Of a DNA stretch of 35,553 nucleotides, positions 13,580-17,272 are shown piece by piece. Source of the stretch: Silvibacterium sp. (lineage in GTDB: Bacteria; Acidobacteriota; Terriglobia; Terriglobales; Acidobacteriaceae); the NCBI GenBank assembly GCA_030037215.1, contig JASHRS010000156.1, forward strand, positions 1 through 35,553, given 5' to 3'. The position numbers and the translations under genes were made by a program. Position 1 is the stretch's first letter. The number at the start of each line of letters is the position of its first letter. A model generated the notes under the pieces. It was not told the origin of the DNA. It did not search any database and worked only from the letters and a program-made list of their open reading frames with translations.

Positions 13580-14260
13580 TCAGACCTCAGCCCAGCGGCG
13601 CAAAAGGTTGTGATAGATGCCGGTGAGCTTGACTGCGTTGGGCGAATTCACATCTCCAGCACTGATTTGCTGGATGACGTTATCGAGATCGAAGAGCAGG
13701 GTGCGGGCGCTATCGTCGCGGACCATGCTTTGAATCCAGAAGAAGGAAGAGACGCGTGCACCGCGAGTGACGGGGCGGACGTTGTGCAGGCTGGATGAGG
13801 GATAGAGAACCATGTGTCCAGCAGGCAGTTTGACGGAGTGGATGCCGTAGGTGTCTTCGATGATGAGCTCGCCGCCATCGTATTCTTCGGGATTGCTGAA
13901 GAAGAGTGTGGCGGAGAGATCGCTGCGAACGCGGTGCGATGTGCCCTTGACGTGGCGGATTGCGTTGTCGACGTGGGTGCCGAAGGACTGGCCTCCGCTG
14001 TAGCGATTGAAGAGCGGCGGAAAGACCTTCATGGGCAGCGCGCCAGAGACGAAGAGCAAGTTCTGACTGAGGGTATGCAGGATGAATTCGCCGACTTCTT
14101 TCGCGACGGGGTGACCTTCGGGAATCTGCATGTTGTCTTTGGCGAGCATCGACTGATGACCGGCGGTGACGCGGCCATCGACCCATTCAGCTGTTTCGAG
14201 CTTCTGGCGGATTTGCGAGACCTGTTCGGCAGAGAACAGCTCGGGGATGGTCAAGAGCAT
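13580..14260 (-). CDS. piuC: Fe(II)/2-oxoglutarate-dependent PKHD-type hydroxylase (PiuC/YbiX family)
   Basis: [19 protein letters not shown]...[42 protein letters not shown] is the PiuC/YbiX signature; adjacent to a TonB siderophore receptor. Confidence 0.93.
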
Positions 14261-14284: not shown

Positions 14285-16753
14285 TTAGAACTTGTATTTG
14301 AGCCCGAACAGAGCGGATGCTCCGGCTCCGGGAATGACGTGGCCGGGGTGCAACTCGTCAAGATAGAAGCGGTCGAAGAGGTTGTTGACGTTGACCTGGA
14401 AGCTCATACGCTCGGTGATGTCGTACTTGCCCATTGCGTTGAATATCCAGTAGCCGGGCGCGCTTTCGACCACTGTCGTGGGAGTCAGGGTCGCGGTGTT
14501 CGCAGTGCGGCTGTCGACGAAGTTGCCTCCGCCGCCAACTTCGATGCGAGGAGCAAGGCGGTATTCAGTCCAGAGATTGAAGAGGTTTTCAGGAACGTTG
14601 TTCAGCGGCTGGCCGACAGCGGCGGGATAGTATTTCGACGACACCACCTCGCTGTGCATGAAGGTATAGCTTGAAAGCAACTCCCAGCGGTCTGTGACGT
14701 GGCCCTGGACACCGATCTCCGCGCCGTCGACGCGCTGCGTGCCCGCAAGCACATCGATGGATGAGTCGGTAGGATCGGGCTCACGTGCGTTTAGTTTGGT
14801 GGTGCGGAAGAGCGCGGCGCGGGCAGTGAAGCGCCCGTTGTTGAGGTCCCATTTGCTGCCGGCTTCGAAGGTTTCGTTTTCTTCGGGAGGCGTAGCGGCT
14901 GTGGCTGCGGTGAGTGAGAGCGTCTCGGCCGAGGGGTCGAATGAGGTTCCATAGTCGAAGTAAATGCTGCCATTCGAGCTGGGCTTGTAGACGAGAGCGC
15001 CGCGCCATGTTGGTTTGTCGAGTGGCTGAATGAAACTTACAGGCGTACCAATGAGAGCGCCATTTGAGTTGAAGGCGTAGTTGACAGCGTTGTAGGCAGC
15101 GTCAAAGCGGTCCCAACGAGCGCCGCCGCTCAGCTCCCATTGACGACTCAGCTCAAAGGTGTCGAGGACGTATGCTCCGAAGCTATGGGCGGTGGTATGA
15201 ACGTTGGATTTCGGCGACACAGTTCCAGAGAATGGCTGATATGGGTCGGGGTCGAGAAGATTGGTAAGAGGAACGGTGTTGAGTCCGGCTGCATTGGTGT
15301 ACATGGTGCGGGTCGGGTCAGAGGTTTCCTTGCCGCCTTCGATGCCGACGACACCGGTCTGGCGGATTCCGAGGAGCTTTCCCGTAAGGGTGACGTCGGC
15401 CTGGTCCCAGAAAGAAGTTTCAACGCTCTGGCCAGCAAGCTGATTGCGGTTGACCTTGACCTGGTCGAGCGGGGTTTCCGGAGTAATGATTCCCGCGCTG
15501 GCGTTGTTGACCTGCGGCTCGGTGATCTGCCACTTGCGCTGGTAATTGCCATAGCGGACGAAGTTACGGACGAGTCCGTGGCTGCCGAGGTCGTGCTCGA
15601 TCTTCATTCCACCCATGTCCACATCGGTGCGCAGGAAATTGTGGTCGGAGAAGCCGTAATAATTGTGGCGCGGCACTGGCGCAGGGCTGCCGAAGTACCA
15701 GGGAAGACCGTAGTCGGGAATGTCGTCTTCAGTGAAGTGGAAATAGTTGAAGGTGAGGCGCGTCGGCGTGTTGAGACCCATGGCCAGCGTAGGAGCGACA
15801 CCGTAGCGGCGGTTAGTAACTACGTCGCGCTGCGCAATGTCCGAATCGTGGCCCATGACGTTCAGGCGGAAAGCCATGCCGTCGGCAAGCTGGGGCAGCG
15901 GCTCGTTGATGTCGGCAGTGAAGCGGCGCGTGAGATCGGTGCCGCCTTCTCCATCGACAGTGACAAAGGGATGTAATTCGGGAGCCTTGCTCTCCTGGTT
16001 GATGACGCCTCCGGTAGAGCCGCGCCCGAACTCGACTCCAGCGGGACCCTCAAGCACATCGACCTGCTCGTAGTTGAAGGGATCACGATAGTAATTGCCG
16101 ATGTCGCGCATGCCGTCGAGGAAGATGTCGTCCTGAGCGGTGAAACCGCGAATAGTGAGGTTATCGCCCTGTGTGGCTCCTTCGCCAGCGGCGAGGCTGA
16201 TGCCGGGCGCGTTGCGAAGCGTGTCGCGCAAAGTGGAGACGCCCTGATCAGCAAGGATGCCTTTGGGAATCGCGGTGATGGACTGCGGCGTGTCAACAAG
16301 CGGCGTGGGAATTTTGGATAGCGCGACACTGTCGACAGCCGTAGCAGTGACCGTGACCGACTGAGCGTTCTTTACACCGATGGAGACGGCATCCTGGCCG
16401 GAGAAAGTGAAGTCTAGGCCGGTTCCAGCAAGAATTTGTTTGATAGCCTGCTGCTGCGAATAGAGACCAGAGACGCCGCGGGATTTGAAGCCCGGAATCG
16501 TCTCCTTCGGCACAGTGTATTCGAGTGTCAGGCCACAGACTTTGGCGTATTGCTCCAGAGCTATGTCCAGCGGGCCGGGGGGAATGTCGAAGCGCCGGAC
16601 GGTAAGCTGGGCCTGGCTTTCCTGGTGGTGTCCTCTACCCGGCATTGCGAACAGCAGGGCAGCTTTGCTGCTGGTTCCGGCGGCTGCGTAGGCTGCGATG
16701 GTACCCATCGCCAGCCAGGCACGCTTCTTGTTTTTTCTCTGCTTCTTGCTCAA
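14285..16753 (-). CDS. TonB-dependent siderophore receptor with N-terminal STN domain; TTG start
   Basis: STN-like FDIPPGPLDIALEQYAKVCGLTLEYTVPKETIPGFKSRGVSGLYSQQQAIKQILAGTGL; plug TPQSITAIPKGILADQGVSTLRDTLRNAPGI; C-terminal FGLKYKF; AAGGAGT SD before TTG. Confidence 0.94.
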   Translation of the reverse strand: MSKKQRKNKKRAWLAMGTIAAYAAAGTSSKAALLFAMPGRGHHQESQAQLTVRRFDIPPGPLDIALEQYAKVCGLTLEYTVPKETIPGFKSRGVSGLYSQQQAIKQILAGTGLDFTFSGQDAVSIGVKNAQSVTVTATAVDSVALSKIPTPLVDTPQSITAIPKGILADQGVSTLRDTLRNAPGISLAAGEGATQGDNLTIRGFTAQDDIFLDGMRDIGNYYRDPFNYEQVDVLEGPAGVEFGRGSTGGVINQESKAPELHPFVTVDGEGGTDLTRRFTADINEPLPQLADGMAFRLNVMGHDSDIAQRDVVTNRRYGVAPTLAMGLNTPTRLTFNYFHFTEDDIPDYGLPWYFGSPAPVPRHNYYGFSDHNFLRTDVDMGGMKIEHDLGSHGLVRNFVRYGNYQRKWQITEPQVNNASAGIITPETPLDQVKVNRNQLAGQSVETSFWDQADVTLTGKLLGIRQTGVVGIEGGKETSDPTRTMYTNAAGLNTVPLTNLLDPDPYQPFSGTVSPKSNVHTTAHSFGAYVLDTFELSRQWELSGGARWDRFDAAYNAVNYAFNSNGALIGTPVSFIQPLDKPTWRGALVYKPSSNGSIYFDYGTSFDPSAETLSLTAATAATPPEENETFEAGSKWDLNNGRFTARAALFRTTKLNAREPDPTDSSIDVLAGTQRVDGAEIGVQGHVTDRWELLSSYTFMHSEVVSSKYYPAAVGQPLNNVPENLFNLWTEYRLAPRIEVGGGGNFVDSRTANTATLTPTTVVESAPGYWIFNAMGKYDITERMSFQVNVNNLFDRFYLDELHPGHVIPGAGASALFGLKYKF

Positions 16754-16832
16754 CGGATACTCCTTAGAATTTCGCTGACACTCCGGTATGTCGCTGAGGG
16801 GTGTTGCGACAATTGAAGGGAGAAACCGCGAG

Positions 16833-16921
16833 GCCTATAGTAGAGGCAATCCGCGGTCTATCCGGCTGCGGGTCTCCCAGGCCCTGCGCTGCTCCGCCAA
16901 GAGTGATAGCGCGGGGTCTGG
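16833..16921 (-). ncRNA. Candidate structured 5' leader RNA of the siderophore receptor gene (three consecutive hairpins)
   Basis: Hairpin A 16877-16890 with 16908-16921 (CCAG, CCC and GCGCT helices separated by mismatches); hairpin B CCGC 16851-16854 with GCGG 16868-16871; hairpin C GCCT 16833-16836 with AGGC 16844-16847. Confidence 0.5.
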
Positions 16922-16933
16922 ACTTCCTTTCCG

Positions 16934-16958
16934 ATATCCGACTTAACTAGTCCGGATT
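16934..16958 (-). promoter_or_regulatory. IscR/Rrf2-like operator palindrome
   Basis: ATATCCGACTTAACTAGTCCGGATT: TCCGACT-N5-AGTCCGGA dyad resembling the IscR type 1 consensus; immediately downstream of the predicted -10. Confidence 0.5.
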
Positions 16959-16959
16959 A

Positions 16960-16989
16960 AATATACGACAAGAACAGTCGTAATTGCAA
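16960..16989 (-). promoter_or_regulatory. Sigma70-like promoter of the siderophore receptor
   Basis: Minus strand TTGCAA (16984-16989), 18-nt spacer, TATATT (16960-16965). Confidence 0.6.
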
Positions 16990-17059: not shown

Positions 17060-17272
17060 ATGATTTCAATTCATGCAGGTCAGTGTGGACTCTGTGCTCA
17101 TTTTGGCGAGGGACATATTCCGATGGATCAGAGGCTCATTCAGATTCATGCAAGCAAAAGTGCACCCGAAGATTTTCTGGATGAATGCGGACACCCGAAG
17201 TTTGCTCCGCTGCACTTGAAGGTCACACCTCTGGCGGGCTGCGACGGATTCGTTCCCGTGGCACAAGCTTAG
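17060..17272 (+). CDS. 70-aa Cys/His-rich microprotein
   Basis: AAGGAGGTG Shine-Dalgarno 4 nt before ATG; QCGLCAHFGEGH...DECGHP...AGCDGF motif pattern. Confidence 0.75.
   Translation: MISIHAGQCGLCAHFGEGHIPMDQRLIQIHASKSAPEDFLDECGHPKFAPLHLKVTPLAGCDGFVPVAQA

Follow-up and report, generated by a model that had tools for sequence, protein, structure and literature searches.

A conserved antisense small RNA family facing the leaders of iron-uptake genes in Acidobacteriaceae, as proposed from comparative sequence analysis

The siderophore receptor locus

The window analysed in this work, meaning the whole stretch of 35,553 nucleotides from Silvibacterium sp., harbours on its minus strand a gene for a TonB-dependent receptor, which best matches models of the catecholate receptor Fiu and whose TTG start is preceded by AAGGAG at a distance of 7-12 nt. 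Receptors of this kind are usually accompanied by a PiuC/YbiX-type dioxygenase, which is encoded here by the neighbouring gene. Upstream of the receptor gene a promoter and two operator-like sequences were identified, whereby the receptor mRNA probably starts at about position 16953:

13580-14260, minus strand: PiuC/YbiX-type Fe2+-dependent dioxygenase, downstream of the receptor
14285-16753, minus strand: TonB-dependent siderophore receptor, Fiu-like, STN-Plug-barrel
16754-16953, minus strand: 5' leader of the receptor mRNA, about 200 nt, which spans the whole of the antisense RNA described below
16940-16952, minus strand: GACTAGTTAAGTC, another operator-like copy at 27 nt downstream of that in the promoter spacer, recognised by its sequence
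16960-16989, minus strand: receptor mRNA promoter TTGCAA-18-TATATT, its -35 and -10 boxes matching across operator-bearing loci
16967-16979, minus strand: operator GACTGTTCTTGTC in the spacer of this promoter, presumed Fur-family site of an iron regulon

An earlier note on this DNA had assigned the region to the 5' leader of the siderophore receptor mRNA, which is supported here, and had described three inverted repeats within it as structure of this mRNA. All three repeats are present:

16921-16877, minus strand: repeat 1, CCAGACCCCGCGCT-17 nt-AGCGCAGGGCCTGG
16871-16851, minus strand: repeat 2, CCGC-N13-GCGG
16847-16833, minus strand: repeat 3, GCCT-N7-AGGC

The structure under selection, as judged from the asymmetry of G-U and A-C pairs, the promoter and the folding energy, is to be assigned to a small RNA on the opposite (plus) strand and not to the receptor mRNA. 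When folded as minus-strand RNA, the 89 nt of the region yielded a z of -0.25, with 78 of 200 shuffled sequences folding equally well, and the minus-strand fold of the whole receptor leader (z -1.67) was rejected as selected structure, as it did not go beyond that of shuffles. The plus strand of positions 16849-16921 (73 nt) reached -46.4 kcal/mol with a z of -4.50, which none of 200 shuffles equalled. This far better folding results from the fact that the two A-C mismatches of the hairpin formed by repeat 1 become G-U pairs on the plus strand. The plus-strand reading furthermore reveals a second hairpin, both hairpins being preceded by a promoter of the sigma-70 type:

16813-16841, plus strand: antisense RNA promoter, sigma-70 type, TTGAAG-17-TATAGT, conserved across loci at a fixed distance
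16849 to about 16930, plus strand: probable antisense small RNA, about 80 nt (covariance models R1/R2, folding z -4.50, covariation)
16849-16873, plus strand: hairpin H1, AUCCGCGGUC-UAUCC-GGCUGCGGGU, 10 bp (fold, covariation)
16877-16921, plus strand: hairpin H2, 14-bp stem with inner CUC/GAG (fold, covariation, loop tally)

The first hairpin of the earlier note is hence real and conserved, and corresponds to H2 as read on the plus strand, the second turned out to be a poor minus-strand view of H1, and the third covers the -10 box of the plus-strand promoter and lies outside the conserved RNA. The apical loop of H2 reads CGCCAA on the plus strand (16895-16900), which is seen on the mRNA strand as UUGGCG within CUC..GAG. 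The 5' end of the RNA presumably lies 7 nt after the -10 box, and its 3' end was placed just past H2, a position that is uncertain because the tails following H2 are pyrimidine-rich across loci and usually possess only a weak U-tract.

Divergent from the receptor gene, an open reading frame of 70 amino acids (MISIHAGQCGLCAHFG..., 17060-17272, plus strand) was noted, which has a homologue in the corresponding position of locus L004 and no Pfam or NCBIfam match. The plus-strand RNA was considered as 5' leader of this frame and the idea was dismissed, as the arrangement occurs only in two Silvibacterium receptor loci.

Distribution and covariation of the RNA family

A DNA search of 61 relatives returned two further copies, both from one genome of the same genus and located before two different genes, one preceding the orthologous receptor (L004) and the other a multicopper oxidase gene that comes right after one of the fur family (L003). 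Among these first copies the stem arms vary by compensating changes, and neither the loop ACTCTTGGCGGAG nor the stretch CAGCCGGATAGAC is altered. A first covariance model, built from two sequences, matched 42 of 250 Acidobacteriaceae genomes, which belong to 19 of 79 genera, and a second model, comprising both hairpins and applied to 396 genomes from the phylum, matched 15 Acidobacteriaceae genomes and one genome outside that family, the latter looking like a chance match. Metagenome-assembled genomes make up a large share of this wider genome set; matches in the scan of named genomes were obtained for Silvibacterium, Edaphobacter, Granulicella, Acidicapsa, Terracidiphilus and Acidobacteriales. 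Three candidates were set aside, namely a hairpin of 76% GC from another family of the phylum (L070), treated as a chance match, a Paenibacillus sequence (L043), which has no model match, and the lone extra exact-pattern match from 200 family genomes (L005), which has no stem, no CTC before TTGGCG and a different setting. No copies were found in the viral contigs searched.

Most copies examined oppose a 5' leader that belongs to the gene of a TonB receptor or of a multicopper oxidase. The opposed genes encode TonB receptors (Plug/STN), Oar-like proteins (CarboxypepD_reg, OMP_b-brl_4) and multicopper oxidases, some of them adjoining fur, and about 85-320 nt separate the conserved block from the start codon of the downstream gene.

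The earlier note had proposed to judge its hairpins by conservation and by covariation in the leaders of orthologous receptor genes, and both were clearly found. Among 52 distinct sequences, compensatory double changes occur in 22 of 25 pairs (7 of the 8 modelled pairs of H1; 14 of 14 stem pairs of H2), with 119 double-change cells as compared to 20.9 in shuffles, whereby these pair counts lean towards the proposed structure, as the alignment was fitted to it. The covariation score amounts to 0.388, whereas shuffles yield 0.188 and slid partners do not exceed 0.125. Within 48 curated sequences, 142 G-U cells but only 16 A-C cells were counted on the plus strand, an asymmetry which is too large to originate from the alignment fitting and was visible already in a 31-sequence alignment derived from the first model. 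This excess fixes the strand of the RNA as plus, and 45 of the 48 sequences fold more stably as plus strand.

These findings bear on the reading put forward in the earlier note, according to which the structure would be a cis-regulatory leader of the minus-strand mRNA, i.e., a riboswitch or a protein-binding element, with the plus-strand promoter being incidental. The conserved block does reside within the leader of the downstream gene and the long hairpin also forms on the mRNA strand, but both the G-U to A-C ratio and the folding energy favour the plus strand, the minus-strand fold is no better than chance, and a near-consensus plus-strand promoter is kept at a fixed distance. Rfam 15, searched at gathering thresholds, returned zero matches for the whole window and none for 20 homologous loci, and a relaxed threshold around the feature gave chance-level matches only, for which reason a riboswitch or other Rfam cis-element was rejected. 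The covariance-model check proposed earlier (cobalamin, acido-1 and others) hence came out negative, and the conserved loop is to be seen as an antisense-recognition loop and not as an aptamer core. Acido-1 and Acido-Lenti-1 (RF01686, RF01687), structured RNA motifs originally detected in Acidobacteria (PMC2864571), were not reported by the scans of the window or of the 20 loci either. Taken as a whole, a minus-strand leader element is given little probability. The antisense RNA family itself is absent from Rfam.

Next to the main group, divergent copies were observed (L028, L034, L036, L037, L068, L073 and others), several of them with the loop CTTCGCCAAAAG. They lack the iron operator and are partly located before other genes (DUF6662, GH43, Oar-like/outer-membrane protein), and may represent a separate subfamily responding to another signal.

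Two facing promoters and the iron operator

Across loci, the plus-strand promoter follows the pattern TTGAA-17/18-TATART and in most of them ends 7 nt before the RNA. A score of at least 9 of 12 was obtained in 22 of 36 loci as compared to 1.9% of shuffled sequences, a count that excludes 12 loci which had been selected with the TATART pattern. The facing mRNA promoter was identified to be of a different kind, as upstream of the RNA, in the sense of the mRNA, GAC-N7-GTC[GT][TC]ATAT is found in 39 of 48 loci, whereas the plus-strand promoter is without a recognisable iron operator, no full operator being present on its side in any of the 48. This distinguishes the family from a RyhB-like trans-acting sRNA, as the operator belongs to the promoter of the facing mRNA and never to that of the small RNA. 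In 37 of the 39 operator-bearing loci a TTG-type -35 box matching at least 4 of 6 bases is located 17-18 nt from the TATATT -10 box, and the operator therefore occupies the spacer of the mRNA promoter. For nearly all loci, the mRNA start deduced from this promoter falls 20-90 nt ahead of the overlap. Tandem operator copies, as in the window, are also present in L014, L015, L026, L027, L033, L045, L046 and L055, and in fur-containing operons the operator is located about 490-520 nt away, before fur, with the RNA residing between fur and the next gene.

The operator also occurs without the antisense RNA (GAC-N7-GTCGTATATT in L096, L104, L105, L106, L111, L112 and L113), where it precedes genes for FTR1/FtrD iron permeases and for cysteine desulfurases, along with those for a sigma factor and a further multicopper oxidase, and therefore is considered to mark an iron regulon. 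GAC-N7-GTCGTATATT is accordingly put forward as candidate iron-regulon operator for the Acidobacteriaceae, and the GAC-N7-GTC operator may be bound by the product of a Fur-family gene.

As the two promoters converge at a distance of about 120 bp, colliding transcription has to be weighed, i.e., the plus-strand promoter could act by firing into the facing mRNA promoter, with the RNA being a mere by-product. Such a function needs neither a conserved fold nor a conserved loop, yet covariation extends to 22 of the 25 pairs and the loop hardly varies, and colliding transcription is therefore regarded as the least probable of the explanations considered in this work.

Proposed loop recognition and mode of action

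On the mRNA strand the loop reads UUGGCG in 42 of 48 distinct loci and a YUNR U-turn is present in all 48. UUGGCG is the target loop within the rep mRNA of plasmid ColIb-P9 for the antisense Inc RNA (PMC7646527 and the reference cited there), and the antisense RNA of I-complex plasmids binds to the rep mRNA via a kissing complex (PMC7646527, PMC10724649). The best meaningful Rfam match to the mRNA hairpin of locus L011 is RF01089 (PK-repBA), with 17.1 bits (E 0.1) as compared to a gathering score of 45, which was not reached in any of 20 loci. The identity of loop and U-turn with the ColIb-P9 target motif, along with this weak match, is the reason for which loop kissing is proposed.

Positions 16849-16930 of the plus strand probably constitute a small-RNA gene of a conserved and so far undescribed family in Acidobacteriaceae, which acts as cis-antisense RNA and dampens iron-uptake mRNAs through loop-loop kissing. 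Comparison among loci well supports the anatomy of this RNA, and it is likewise by comparison that the predicted RNA, its strand and promoter, the regulated promoter facing it, the loop, and the target genes along with their overlap with the RNA are documented; expression of the RNA, binding of a Fur-family protein to the operator, kissing as well as sign and step of the regulation are put forward as a model.

The model assumes that the operator-free promoter drives the synthesis of a two-hairpin RNA of about 80 nt, which would be the perfect complement of receptor mRNA nucleotides of about +25 to +105. The receptor mRNA would be made from the facing promoter when iron is short, under control of the Fur-family-like operator. 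The UUGGCG loop of the mRNA would then kiss the CGCCAA loop of the small RNA, whereupon both could zip into a duplex. Most likely, this duplex would make the mRNA of the receptor or multicopper oxidase less productive, with cleavage by RNase III, a block of translation or early termination as the conceivable routes, and a steady antisense supply opposing an iron-starvation promoter would set a threshold which that promoter has to exceed. Repression is the likely sign of regulation by analogy to the DonS antisense RNAs opposite susC and to plasmid RNAI.

As to the step affected, masking of the antisense target in silico had no consistent effect on the ribosome-binding site, Shine-Dalgarno accessibility going up in 5 and down in 9 of 25 cases, and direct masking of this site was rejected on account of this inconsistency. 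No conserved leader peptide was found in the mRNA leaders, and a leader peptide as in IncFII/IncI was thus rejected. A pseudoknot of the mRNA loop was rejected too, as a downstream partner for UUGGCG is not enriched over shuffles (longest complement 4.23 nt as compared to 4.21 nt). Neither of the known plasmid ways of turning kissing into control is therefore visible, and of the downstream options that remain, cleavage by RNase III and premature termination are proposed as the simplest.

The loop is more strongly conserved than a purely cis-acting pair would need, which could point to a trans target or a bound protein. It was therefore asked how well a trans-acting sRNA would account for the findings, i.e., an RNA acting mainly on other mRNAs by means of its invariant CUCCGCCAAGAG loop, for which the iron-gene neighbourhood would be a mere place of origin. 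Own promoter and compact fold would suit such an RNA, as would the CUCC within the loop, a tetramer resembling an anti-Shine-Dalgarno sequence. Its position opposite the leaders of iron genes is kept over 19 genera and several unrelated target genes, however, and genomes with multiple targets carry several copies instead of one central copy; moreover, the full iron operator was not found beside its own promoter. Within six genomes, the 12-nt loop complement showed no excess elsewhere, its number being on a par with that of a reversed-pattern control apart from the loci themselves, and remote targets sharing this 12-nt complement were rejected on this basis. With the complement not being enriched elsewhere and the copies sitting opposite their genes, cis action is favoured and a trans-acting sRNA appears unlikely.

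Comparison with known antisense systems

Like the Inc RNA/RNAI of I-complex plasmids (IncI-alpha ColIb-P9, IncB, IncK), the family proposed here is a short antisense hairpin RNA directed against an mRNA leader, and the mRNA, like stem-loop I of the rep mRNA, exposes a UUGGCG target loop opposed by an RNA from the opposite strand. It differs from the plasmid system by possessing two hairpins instead of one, by having chromosomal iron genes and no rep gene downstream, and by lacking both the downstream CGCCAA pseudoknot partner and the conserved leader peptide. In the polysaccharide-utilisation loci of Bacteroides, DonS cis-antisense RNAs repress susC homologues (PMC7366714). The likeness to DonS is one of arrangement, as a short divergent RNA overlaps the leader of a TonB-dependent transporter; the phylum is a different one and DonS opposes sugar uptake, whereas the family described here opposes iron uptake. 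RNA-alpha and RNA-beta of the Vibrio anguillarum plasmid pJM1 are antisense RNAs that tune the anguibactin siderophore receptor/transport operon, their transcripts being much longer than the RNA of about 80 nt and located inside the operon. We know of no small covarying two-hairpin family among them.

Whether this chromosomal antisense family shares the UUGGCG/CGCCAA U-turn kissing device of the I-complex, either by convergence or by capture from a plasmid, and uses it to tune iron-uptake mRNAs as a second layer of control on top of an iron-responsive operator, is considered an even bet. Acidobacteria are major soil organisms. Few structured sRNAs are annotated for them, with four distinct ones given in a 2022 survey (PMC9029176). 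If true, the proposal would add a new sRNA family present in about one sixth of the sampled Acidobacteriaceae genomes, a dual control of siderophore receptors and multicopper oxidases by operator and antisense RNA, and an iron-regulon operator sequence for a phylum for which none is described in the literature searched; it would also suggest the UUGGCG kissing loop to be a general antisense-recognition module and not a plasmid peculiarity.

Further elements of the opposed leaders

Long TonB receptor leaders of the Edaphobacter/Granulicella type contain a second conserved element, AGCGGTCRACGRTGAGGTGCG, which, in the sense of the mRNA, follows the RNA at a distance of about 120 nt (L020, L022, L024, L029, L047, L049 and L052). 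Leaders of the multicopper-oxidase type (L003, L011, L013, L015, L017 and L019) possess an inverted repeat, TGCGGGC...GCCCGCA, which flanks the -10 box of the antisense promoter. Between its arms CCUUCAC is found, which could pair with the GUGAGG ribosome-binding site, and an alternative mRNA structure is thus possible for these leaders.
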